This document shows, piece after piece, positions 4,100 through 40,264 of a DNA stretch of 40,264 nucleotides. The stretch lies in NCBI GenBank assembly GCA_913044115.1, contig CAJWNO010000005.1, positions 1 to 40,264 on the forward strand, read 5' to 3'. The notes below the pieces were generated by a model. The model was given only the letters and a program-made list of their open reading frames with translations. It was not told the origin of the DNA and did not search any database. Origin of the DNA: an uncultured Gammaproteobacteria bacterium. Its GTDB lineage: Bacteria > Pseudomonadota > Gammaproteobacteria > Magnimaribacterales > TMED112. The position numbers were made by a program, and so were the translations under genes. The number at the start of each line of letters is the position of its first letter. Positions within the stretch are counted from its first letter, which is position 1.

Positions 4100-4435
4100 A
4101 TGGAAAAAGATAGGATCATAAGGGTCAATGACAACCTTAAAAAAGAAATAGCTTCTTATATTCAGAACTCTCAGTTAAAAGATTCGTGTGGTTTCATAAG
4201 CATCAATCATGTTGAAACAGCAAGAGACTTATCAGGTGCAAGAGTTTTCTTTTCTACCATTAATTCTGAACTCTCTAATAAAGATCTCCAAAAATTTCTC
4301 AATGAAAATGCCTGGATGATTAGAAAAGGCTTGTCAGGAATATTGCCACTGAAGAGAGTGCCTGAGCTTAGATTCTTTTATGACGATCATATCGATAACG
4401 TTAGAAAGATTGATGATCTAATTGAAAAATTATAG
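4100..4435 (+). CDS. rbfA: Ribosome-binding factor A
   Basis: Position between infB and truB, size, ARVFFSTI and RKGLSGILPLKRVPELRFFYD motifs. Confidence 0.9.
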   Translation: MEKDRIIRVNDNLKKEIASYIQNSQLKDSCGFISINHVETARDLSGARVFFSTINSELSNKDLQKFLNENAWMIRKGLSGILPLKRVPELRFFYDDHIDNVRKIDDLIEKL

Positions 4436-36889: not shown

Positions 36890-38155
36890 ATGGAAAGATT
36901 AATCATTAAAGGAGGAAATCATCTAACTGGTGAGGTTGATTGCTCTGGAGCAAAAAATGCTGGTCTTCCAATTTTAGCTTCGACAATTTTGTTAGATGGT
37001 TCTGCTTTTATTGGGAATTTACCTCACCTTCAAGACATAACGACAAAACTTGAATTATTAAATTCAATGGGATCTGCAATTAATTTTCATGAAGATGGTT
37101 TCATAGAAATTGATTCTTCAAATATAGTTGTACCAGAAGCAAGATATGAACTAGTAAAAACAATGAGAGCTTCAATTCTTGTAATGGGCCCACTAGTTGC
37201 CAAATATGGTAAAGCAAAAATATCTCAACCTGGTGGTTGTGATATAGGAACAAGACCTATAGATTTTCATCTTGCTGGATTAGAGCAAATGGGAGCAGAA
37301 ATTACTTCAGATTCAAAATATATTTATTTGAAAGCAAAAAAATTAACTCCTATTGATTTTGAGTTCCCAAAAGTCTCAGTAACTGGAACAGAAAACTTAA
37401 TGATGGCTGCTACACTTATTGATGGGGTTACAGTTTTACGAAATTGTGCAAAAGAACCTGAGGTACTTGAGCTTGCAAATTATCTAAATAGTTGTGGGGC
37501 AAAGATAGAAGGGGCAGGGGAATCAAACATCACAATTACAGGAGTTAAAAGCCTGAAAGCAGATAGATGGAATGTGTTATTCGATAGGATTGAAGCAGGC
37601 ACATATCTCGTTGCAGGAGCAATAACTAATGGTCACGTGAAAGTGAACAAAATTAATCCATCAACAATAAATATTATTAGTGAAAAACTGATACAGATGG
37701 GTGTCAAGGTAAACATTGACAAAGATTCTGTTGAAGTTGATGCCACATCTTCAGATTTGAAAGCACAGGATATATTTACAGAGCCTTTTCCCGGATTTCC
37801 AACAGATATGCAAGCCCAATTTATGACACTAAATACGATAGCTGCAGGAAATTGCACCATAGAAGAAACTGTTTTCGAAAATAGATTTCAACACGTCAGT
37901 CAATTAAGAAAAATGGGAGCTGATATTGTATTAAACAAAAATAAAGCTTCTGTAACAGGAGTTTCAAATTTAGTTGGAGCAAATGTCAGCGCCTCTGATT
38001 TAAGGGCATCAGCAAGTTTAGTTTTAGCAGGATTAGTAGGAAAGAATAAGACACAAATAGATGACATCTATCATATTGATAGAGGCTATGAATGTATTGA
38101 GGAAAAGCTTAATAAATTGGGAGCTGAAATAATTAGAGAGCCCGTGGTGTATTAG
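36890..38155 (+). CDS. murA: UDP-N-acetylglucosamine 1-carboxyvinyltransferase
   Basis: GNHLTGEVDCSGAKNAGLPILAST, GGCDIGTRPIDFHL, FPGFPTDMQAQFM. Confidence 0.98.
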   Translation: MERLIIKGGNHLTGEVDCSGAKNAGLPILASTILLDGSAFIGNLPHLQDITTKLELLNSMGSAINFHEDGFIEIDSSNIVVPEARYELVKTMRASILVMGPLVAKYGKAKISQPGGCDIGTRPIDFHLAGLEQMGAEITSDSKYIYLKAKKLTPIDFEFPKVSVTGTENLMMAATLIDGVTVLRNCAKEPEVLELANYLNSCGAKIEGAGESNITITGVKSLKADRWNVLFDRIEAGTYLVAGAITNGHVKVNKINPSTINIISEKLIQMGVKVNIDKDSVEVDATSSDLKAQDIFTEPFPGFPTDMQAQFMTLNTIAAGNCTIEETVFENRFQHVSQLRKMGADIVLNKNKASVTGVSNLVGANVSASDLRASASLVLAGLVGKNKTQIDDIYHIDRGYECIEEKLNKLGAEIIREPVVY

Positions 38156-39101
38156 GTCTTTCCTTTGTTACAAGTTTCAAATCTATTTCTTTGTCAGACC
38201 TAATAACCTTAAGCTCCAAAATCTCACCTGGAGTAACACTATTCACAGAAGCCAGTAAAATATTCCATCTTGCTTCTGCACCTTTTATACCAATAATTAT
38301 GTCTCCATCTTTGAGGCCTTCAGTAAATTGAGAGTTATTATTCAATTCAACGACATATAGCGCTGGAATTCTATTCGTAGTATTAATTGGTGTAAAAAAA
38401 CCCCTTCGGAATCTAAAATCCCCAAGCCAAGCTCTATTAACCTTTCCATACTTGATAATCTCATTAGTTATTGATAAAACTTTATCAGACGGCAAAGCAA
38501 AACCTACTCCGTCTGAACCTCCAGATGCAGATGCTATAAGCGTGCTTAAACCAATAAGTTCACCATTATTATTTATCAAAGCCCCACCTGAATTACCCTT
38601 ATTAATAGCAGCATCTGTTTGAATAATATTTAAATAAGGATTACCAAAATTCCTACCTGTTGCACTTAATATTCCTCTAGAGACAGAAGTTCCAAGGTTA
38701 TAAGGGTTGCCAATAGCATATACAGTTTGACCAATTTGTAATTCTTCATCATCAGAGAATCTAATATGCTTTAGGTTGCTCTCGTTAATTTTAAGTACTG
38801 CTAGATCTGCATATTCATCAAACCCAATCAAATTCGCTAGATAAGATTTACCAGAAATTTTCACTGTACTTAAATTGCCTGAAAGAACATGAAATGCTGT
38901 TATGATGTATCCATCCTCAGAAATTATTACTCCTGAGCCAAAACTTTTACCTCTATTGTCTAAAGATTCTATTGTGACGATTGAAGCAGATATATCATCA
39001 AAATTTATTTCTTTTTCATCTAAGAATCGATTTTCAAAATATACAAACTGAGCACCAAAAATTAAGCCAAAAAATAATATTAATAAAAACAGGTTTTTCA
39101 T
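38133..39101 (-). CDS. DegS/HtrA-like trypsin-fold serine protease, N-terminally anchored, one PDZ-like domain
   Basis: AFHVLSG, YADLAVLKI, NKGNSGGALIN; GDIIIGIKG PDZ motif; neighbour of rplM. Confidence 0.88.
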   Translation of the reverse strand: MKNLFLLILFFGLIFGAQFVYFENRFLDEKEINFDDISASIVTIESLDNRGKSFGSGVIISEDGYIITAFHVLSGNLSTVKISGKSYLANLIGFDEYADLAVLKINESNLKHIRFSDDEELQIGQTVYAIGNPYNLGTSVSRGILSATGRNFGNPYLNIIQTDAAINKGNSGGALINNNGELIGLSTLIASASGGSDGVGFALPSDKVLSITNEIIKYGKVNRAWLGDFRFRRGFFTPINTTNRIPALYVVELNNNSQFTEGLKDGDIIIGIKGAEARWNILLASVNSVTPGEILELKVIRSDKEIDLKLVTKERPNTPRAL

Positions 39102-39156: not shown

Positions 39157-39582
39157 ATGAAAACAACAGCATTAAGAACTCAAGATATTGAGCAAAAATG
39201 GTACATAGTAGACTGTACTGGTAAAAAACTTGGCAGATTATCTGTCCAAGTTGCAAATATATTGAGGGGAAAAAATAAACCTGAATATACACCAAATTCA
39301 GATGTTGGAGATTTTGTAATTCTTCTTAATGCAAAAAATATTGAAGTTACAGGTAAAAAAGCAACAGATAAAATTTATTACAGACATTCAGGCTTCCCAG
39401 GTGGAATCAAACAAATATCATTTCAAGATCAAATGGAGAAGAATCCTGAGAAAGTGATAAGAGATGCAGTGAAAGGAATGTTGCCAAAAAATAGATTAAA
39501 TAGACAAATTATTAAAAAATTAAAAGTTTACAATGATGAGAATCATCCTCACGAAGCACAGAACCCTCAGGAGATAAAGTAA
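39157..39582 (+). CDS. rplM: 50S ribosomal protein L13
   Basis: [42 protein letters not shown]. Confidence 0.98.
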
Positions 39583-39962
39583 TGAGTACTATTTCTGGAA
39601 GAAGAAAAGAAGCAACTGCAGTAGTCAGACTTAAAAAAGGCACAGGGGTTGTTACTGTTAACAAAAAAAGCATCGATGATTACTTTGGAAGAGATGTAGC
39701 AAAAATGATCGTTAGACAGCCATTGGTCTTAACAAAAAATGCAGAAACATTTGATGTTGAAGCCAAAGTTCAAGGAGGCGGTTCATTTGGGCAAGCAGGA
39801 GCAATTAGGCTCGCTATTTCCAAAGCTTTATTAGAAGTAGATCCTGAATTAAGAGGCGAATTAAAAAAAGCTGGCTATTTAACAAGAGATTCAAGAGTTA
39901 AAGAAAGAAAGAAAGTTGGTTTAAAGAAAGCAAGAAAAAGTCCACAGTTTTCAAAGAGATAA
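39582..39962 (+). CDS. rpsI: 30S ribosomal protein S9
   Basis: [17 protein letters not shown]...[21 protein letters not shown]. Confidence 0.98.
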
Positions 39963-39969
39963 AATCTAC

Positions 39970-40007
39970 TTTGAACACCGACAAAAAAATCCTTATTTAT
40001 GTTCAAA
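39970..40007. repeat. Inverted repeat TTTGAACA-N22-TGTTCAAA (copy 1), just after rpsI
   Basis: Direct reading; 8/8 inverted match. Confidence 0.85.
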
Positions 40008-40060
40008 AAATGTAAATTTACCAGTTATTTTTTGAAAAGCTTTTTATTTTTTAAATAATC

Positions 40061-40070
40061 TGTATATAAT
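40061..40070 (+). promoter_or_regulatory. Extended -10-like TGtATATAAT upstream of the integrase-like ORF
   Basis: TATAAT with upstream TG; -35 only weakly matched. Confidence 0.4.
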
Positions 40071-40119
40071 ACTGATCATATTGATTTAAGAGGAATTGGT
40101 CTGGTTGTTTTCACTAAAG

Positions 40120-40145
40120 TTTGAACACCAAAAAGACTGTTCAAA
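40120..40145. repeat. Inverted repeat TTTGAACA-N10-TGTTCAAA (copy 2), abutting the ATG at 40146
   Basis: Direct reading; shares TTTGAACACC and TGTTCAAAA with copy 1. Confidence 0.85.
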
Positions 40146-40264
40146 ATGTCAAAAAATAAGCAAGGGAAAAAACACATCCACATTCTTGACGGAATGTCAC
40201 TTTACACTAGAGATAAATCTCCTTTTTTCTGGGGATATTTAAACATTGAAGGTGAGATTCATAA
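40146..40264 (+). CDS. 5' end of an integrase/tyrosine recombinase-like ORF (truncated by window; alternative ATG at 40194)
   Basis: MSKNKQGKKHIHILDGMSLYTRDKSPFFWGYLNIEGEIH resembles integrase N-terminal 'SLYxRxxSPFWxxxxxIxGK' pattern; no stop before the window end. Confidence 0.45.
   Translation, partial: MSKNKQGKKHIHILDGMSLYTRDKSPFFWGYLNIEGEIH

Follow-up and report, generated by a model that had tools for sequence, protein, structure and literature searches.

Introduction

Several prophage integrases of the kind represented by IntS of KplE1 and P4 Int have been documented to exert negative control over themselves (PMC2951348), and PutA, a membrane-associated enzyme, represses its own gene when it is not engaged (PMC8249747); the latter is the nearest functional parallel to the petA gene considered here. 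The arm-binding domain found in integrases of this general type consists of three strands and a helix (PMC8138268). The DNA analysed here, termed the window, is a stretch of 40,264 nucleotides that represents a complete contig; it ends at position 40264, at codon 39 of a gene which a first-pass annotation had called integrase-like, and therefore 39 codons of this downstream gene are visible. The genomes in which the petA locus was compared belong to SAR86 cluster bacteria, and single-cell genomes and MAGs are among their records.

The fused gene and the petA locus

The visible part of the fused gene (40146-40264, plus strand) encodes the first 39 residues of a domain of the integrase arm-binding type (HMM match with E 7.6e-27 in G000, the genome of the window). 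It is preceded on the same strand by rplM (39157-39582; ribosomal protein L13, Pfam Ribosomal_L13, E 1e-47), with which the ancestral order rplM-rpsI-petABC begins, and by rpsI (39582-39962; ribosomal protein S9), which was recognized by translation and by alignment with relatives. A gene for a trypsin-like serine protease with a weak PDZ match (38133-39101) is oriented divergently from rplM.

A search of 100 relatives recovered the petA locus within the genus, with DNA identity that reaches 84% across the intergenic region. The reading frame opened by the corresponding ATG in sister genomes encodes approximately 60 integrase-like residues and a linker of ca. 20-35 residues, and then runs through the whole of PetA, the Rieske iron-sulfur protein of cytochrome bc1; the designation as an integrase-like gene thus holds for the first ~60 codons, but not beyond them. 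The PetA portion of the sister proteins, which lies past the end of the window, retains its Tat signal/anchor, matches PF10399 and PF00355, and contains both [2Fe-2S] cluster motifs (CTHLSC and CPCHGS); petB and petC adjoin the fusion downstream, followed by a glutathione-transferase-like gene. Every sister whose frame is intact has the fusion to PetA, including the genome that is assembled as one contig (G013) and the single-cell assemblies. In one of the sisters (G014) the contig ends within PetA, and in another (G016; L045, G016:C3) a 1-base deletion in the linker creates a stop between the domain and PetA, which may reflect either an assembly error or a natural split in which the linkage is non-essential.

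The integrase-like domain occurs once per genome in 14 of the 21 genus genomes. In six members of the genus without the fusion, petA starts a few nucleotides past the rpsI stop codon, with neither dyads nor domain; G018 (60% complete), where the search did not recover the petA locus, is not counted among these six. In other SAR86 families, petA follows rpsI after 1-3 nt. Since petA stands directly after rpsI in the unfused relatives, its ancestral state was to be read on from rplM-rpsI; in the derived state, a predicted promoter, sites and domain have been inserted before petA. On a tree of rplM, rpsI and petB, the distribution of the fusion needs three changes, and a single origin is not rejected (AU p 0.217).

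Identity of the N-terminal domain

A profile of the SAR86 domains was searched against 369 genomes of the class, with E below 0.001 as the threshold; fewer than 369 of the genomes covered are from outside the order. Outside of SAR86, matches were found in 13 genomes; the readable ones, which leave out L116 and L118 (matching frame not recovered) and include a partial frame in L107, are tyrosine recombinases in which the match covers the N-terminus. In profile comparisons (hhalign), the PetA domain aligned with these integrase N-termini at a probability of 98.5% (E 2e-15), and the homologous domain of GltD, discussed below, at 92% (E 7e-7); the comparison is not wholly independent, since it was a related profile that had led to those integrases. 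The AlphaFold model of the domain has a beta-beta-beta-beta-alpha topology (pLDDT 78), and its best low-rmsd matches in a viral structure library were integrases (probability 1.00, 1.2-1.4 Å), with no E-value below 0.001. The full-length fusion was modelled poorly (pLDDT 52), and for this reason nothing is drawn from it on the arrangement of the domains.

Other searches were less informative. Sequence and fold searches of the PDB with the domain gave no significant match; the domain alone yielded weak matches or none in Pfam, PHROGs and NCBIfam (DUF6538, E 0.004; a phrog integrase, E 0.009); no phage record matched the 40 residues of the window, and a query of 67 residues found one weak integrase; viral contigs contained no relative of the domain, nor of the intact SAR86 integrase described below. 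By its match to the recombinase N-termini, the N-terminal domain is assigned to the arm-binding domains of tyrosine recombinases. This is the part of a tyrosine recombinase that is present; the core-binding and catalytic domains with the R-H-R-Y residues are absent, and the relatives have the linker and PetA in their place.

The ratio pN/pS was 0.16 in the domain, where silent sites are near saturation, 0.13 in the PetA core and 1.0 in the linker; the N-terminal domain is therefore under purifying selection, and the linker is not.

Dyads upstream of the fused gene

Two inverted repeats, already noticed in the first-pass annotation, occupy the region between rpsI and the fused gene. Site 1 (39970-40007) has the form TTTGAACA-N22-TGTTCAAA, with its left half-site at 39970-39977 on the plus strand and its right half-site at 40000-40007 on the minus strand; site 2 (40120-40145) reads TTTGAACA-N10-TGTTCAAA, with half-sites at 40120-40127 (plus) and 40138-40145 (minus). 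The base that follows the left half-site is conserved as well (C at 39978 and at 40128). With gaps of 6-30 nt, the dyad pattern occurs twice in the window, far above the 0.02 occurrences expected from shuffled windows, and a genome-wide count located it solely at these two places in the 742-kb assembly. Between the sites lies the predicted -10 element of the petA-fusion promoter, TATAAT at 40065-40070 on the plus strand, and site 2 runs straight into the ATG at 40146, as the annotation had also proposed.

Each of the 14 genomes that carry the fusion has both dyads and, between them, a conserved TATAAT at -80, -81 or -91 relative to the ATG. The half-sites are the sole blocks conserved throughout the upstream region: three of them, including the one that abuts the start codon, show no variation in the 14 genomes, and the fourth, the left half-site of site 1, is present in all 14 and varies at its first base (T>C in three genomes). 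The intervening spacers are only 46 and 58% identical. Together with the pN/pS value of the domain, the conserved half-sites indicate that selection maintains sites and domain alike while the sequence that joins these parts drifts. In the leader, TTTAAGAGGAATT (40084-40096) is conserved in one subclade; it resembles a ribosome-binding site ca. 50 nt before the ATG and has no evident start codon.

The 12-nt difference between the two spacers, previously read as one helical turn, did not persist in the relatives: spacer 2 measures 9-10 nt, and spacer 1 either 12-13 or 20-23 nt. Fixed helical phasing or looping of the two sites was also considered; the distance between the site centres ranges from 121 to 144.5 bp among the 14 genomes, and consequently there is no fixed helical phase, and a fixed repression loop is unsupported.

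An accidental fusion of an integrase fragment to petA, retained as a functionless neutral remnant, would be compatible with the freely evolving linker, but it is contradicted by the selection on the domain and its near-saturated silent sites, by the invariant half-sites, and by the parallel fusions to GltD and indolepyruvate oxidoreductase presented below; we regard this explanation as scarcely credible. Site 2 could alternatively act as a hairpin in the leader RNA that controls translation of the fusion, since it is part of the inferred 5' leader, reaches the AUG and could form an 8-bp stem. Against this interpretation, the arms are invariant and show no compensatory change, the lone arm change (the T>C in site 1) breaks its pair, folding is no better than that of shuffled sequences (z -0.07 to -1.5), and site 1 is located upstream of the promoter; as the arms do not covary and the folding is ordinary, a role as RNA hairpin is disfavoured and seems decidedly unlikely.

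Connection to mobile elements

The annotation had left a choice between an autoregulatory operator pair and recombinase attachment sites. The operator pair is better supported, because the dyads occur in 14 of 14 fused and in 0 of 6 unfused loci; the recombination sites lack support at this locus, although they are right in a historical sense, because the TTTGAACA motif marks both ends of a tRNA-Phe island and the domain is of the integrase arm-binding type. This island was found in G017, which belongs to the genus and carries the PetA fusion; there, a further TTGAACA dyad pair stands beside a tRNA-Phe gene (L086, ca. 4105-4279; G017:C10:6542-12278). The island spans 5.7 kb, carries type III restriction-modification genes, and is bounded by tRNA-Phe and a 56-bp near-copy of the 3' half of this gene; the motif sits just inside both ends, in the position of integrase arm sites, and no integrase is left inside the island.

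Attachment sites are expected to show a duplicated core, usually a tRNA 3' end, that bounds an element; such a core was found at the G017 island alone. If an element integrated between rpsI and petA used the repeats upstream of petA as active sites of attachment or recombination, the motif at the island ends would speak for this; yet the petA locus has no tRNA, no core duplication and no catalytic recombinase domain, its spacers of 9-23 nt differ between sites and between species, the locus order is conserved with rpsI and petBC contiguous, and no element separates rpsI from petB, so that we consider active recombination sites very improbable. There is no mobile element at the rpsI-petA locus, and the gene is a PetA fusion, not an integrase.

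An intact integrase with the same N-terminal domain adjoins tRNA-Phe in a member of another family (G029; L089:1418-2768), with five copies of TAACACA/TGTGTTA between the tRNA and the integrase ATG, two of them 10 bp apart; a DNA methylase gene and a possible restriction gene are its neighbours. Tyrosine integrases that are oriented in this way beside tRNA genes repress their own promoter via overlapping sites (PMC2951348). The genomes searched yielded no full integrase accompanied by TTTGAACA sites. The petA module looks like such a block of sites, promoter and arm-binding domain in which the recombinase body has been replaced by PetA.

Fusions in another SAR86 family

An order-wide search of 203 genomes placed the domain in another SAR86 family (f3) as well, in 93 genomes and nearly always in frames of 550-625 residues. 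The translated loci (L090-L103, L123-L139) encode GltD (small subunit of glutamate synthase) that carries the domain at its N-terminus. Upstream of each GltD fusion stands a direct repeat, TGTCATAC-NN-TGTCATAC, whose period is 10 bp (GTCATAC). In its exact form it was found in 76 of the 203 genomes, once in each, always in f3 and just 5' of the domain-GltD gene; it was absent from families f1, f2 and f4, and the reversed repeat, used as a control, had no matches in the 203 genomes. Among the 93 domain genomes, 75 have the exact repeat, and inspection of the other 18 revealed a close variant in all of them; in the 76th genome with the exact repeat (G149), the copy of the domain is damaged. Ten genomes from other families have an unfused gltD immediately after gltB and collinear with it, whereas gltB and gltD are divergent in f3.

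In two f3 genomes the domain is present a second time, as a fusion to indolepyruvate ferredoxin oxidoreductase (1240 residues; L087:5054-8776 and L088:595-4323). These genes are preceded by dyads, TATGCACAG/CTGTGCATA or ATACACAGT/ACTGTGTAT, whose right arm reaches the start codon, as at petA.

These cases bear on the possibility that the sites are operators of an unlinked transcription factor, and that the N-terminal domain serves some other role, such as bc1 assembly or Tat targeting. The domain does sit on a membrane protein, and its tie to the sites rests on co-occurrence and conservation. However, sites and domain co-occur without exception at petA, and again, with other sequences, at gltD; in addition, the genomes contain hardly any such dyads away from the petA locus, and a separate regulator would therefore have a single target. 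Because the co-occurrence is exact in independent cases with different motifs, the unlinked factor is weakened as an explanation, and we view it as unlikely.

Proposed mechanism

It is probable, in our assessment, that the captured arm sites and arm-binding domain enable the fused Rieske protein to control the expression of its own gene. The elements from which this proposal starts, namely the fusion, the homology of the domain, the conservation of the sites, their co-occurrence with the domain and the purifying selection, were established directly in the comparisons above. In an SAR86 bacterium, an ancestral tyrosine-recombinase module that comprised arm-type sites, a promoter and the first ~60 codons would have been inserted between rpsI and petA, and fused in frame to petA through a free linker. 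Since the fused Rieske protein retains its Tat signal/anchor, its N-terminal domain should stay cytoplasmic; it would bind the TTTGAACA half-sites of both dyads, of which site 1 lies ca. 88 bp before the inferred start of transcription and site 2 ca. 56 bp after it, reaching the ATG. Bound to the dyads, the domain would repress, rather than activate, the fusion's own petABC transcription unit. Its availability may depend on the state of PetA (free, exported, or incorporated into bc1): fusion protein that is free or not assembled would act as the repressor, and protein within the bc1 complex would be less available, an assembly feedback by which synthesis could match demand. As a caveat, a membrane-bound electron-transfer protein that acts on DNA would be unusual, which counts against the proposal.

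On a wider scale, and with somewhat less assurance, we favour the view that SAR86 bacteria have on at least three occasions, and with different specificities, made integrase modules of arm sites and arm-binding domain into portable and self-contained feedback circuits that each serve a single metabolic gene, and that in the case of petA a membrane-anchored subunit regulates its own operon. If this is true, a gene can become autoregulated in one step, by capture of the promoter, sites and DNA-binding domain of a mobile element. The setting is central metabolism (complex III, glutamate synthase) in an abundant, streamlined marine lineage, where dedicated regulators are scarce. Matched pairs of domain and site are available and can be tested directly in vitro. 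The locus also carries a warning for annotation: a truncated contig such as that of the window reads as a phage integrase though the gene is petA.

Comparison with known systems

A literature search retrieved no report of such fusions between integrase domains and metabolic enzymes; the locus nevertheless shares individual features with described systems. The SAR86 domain resembles the arm-binding (AB) domain of tyrosine recombinases, Pfam clan CL0081 (PMC8138268), in its sequence profile and in its predicted beta-beta-beta-alpha core, but it is detached from core-binding and catalytic domains. In autoregulated prophage integrases such as IntS of KplE1 and P4 Int, arm-type sites overlap the promoter of the integrase's own gene (PMC2951348), and the arrangement at petA, with predicted sites that overlap the promoter of a gene for an arm-binding domain, matches this layout. 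In contrast to IntS and P4 Int, the petA module has a respiratory or metabolic protein in place of the catalytic recombinase, it has no attachment core, and the SAR86 arrangement is fixed across species.

As in trigger enzymes, an enzyme is joined to a DNA-binding domain, the latter recognized here by homology. The likeness to the trigger enzyme PutA extends to a metabolic, membrane-associated protein that carries a DNA-binding domain and acts at its own promoter region, as is proposed for the fusion (PMC8249747). The two systems differ in the origin of their parts: the SAR86 domain is of the integrase arm-binding type and is accompanied by recognizable arm-like sites, and the SAR86 enzymes are the Rieske protein PetA, GltD and indolepyruvate oxidoreductase. 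The DNA-binding domain of PutA, by comparison, is a ribbon-helix-helix.
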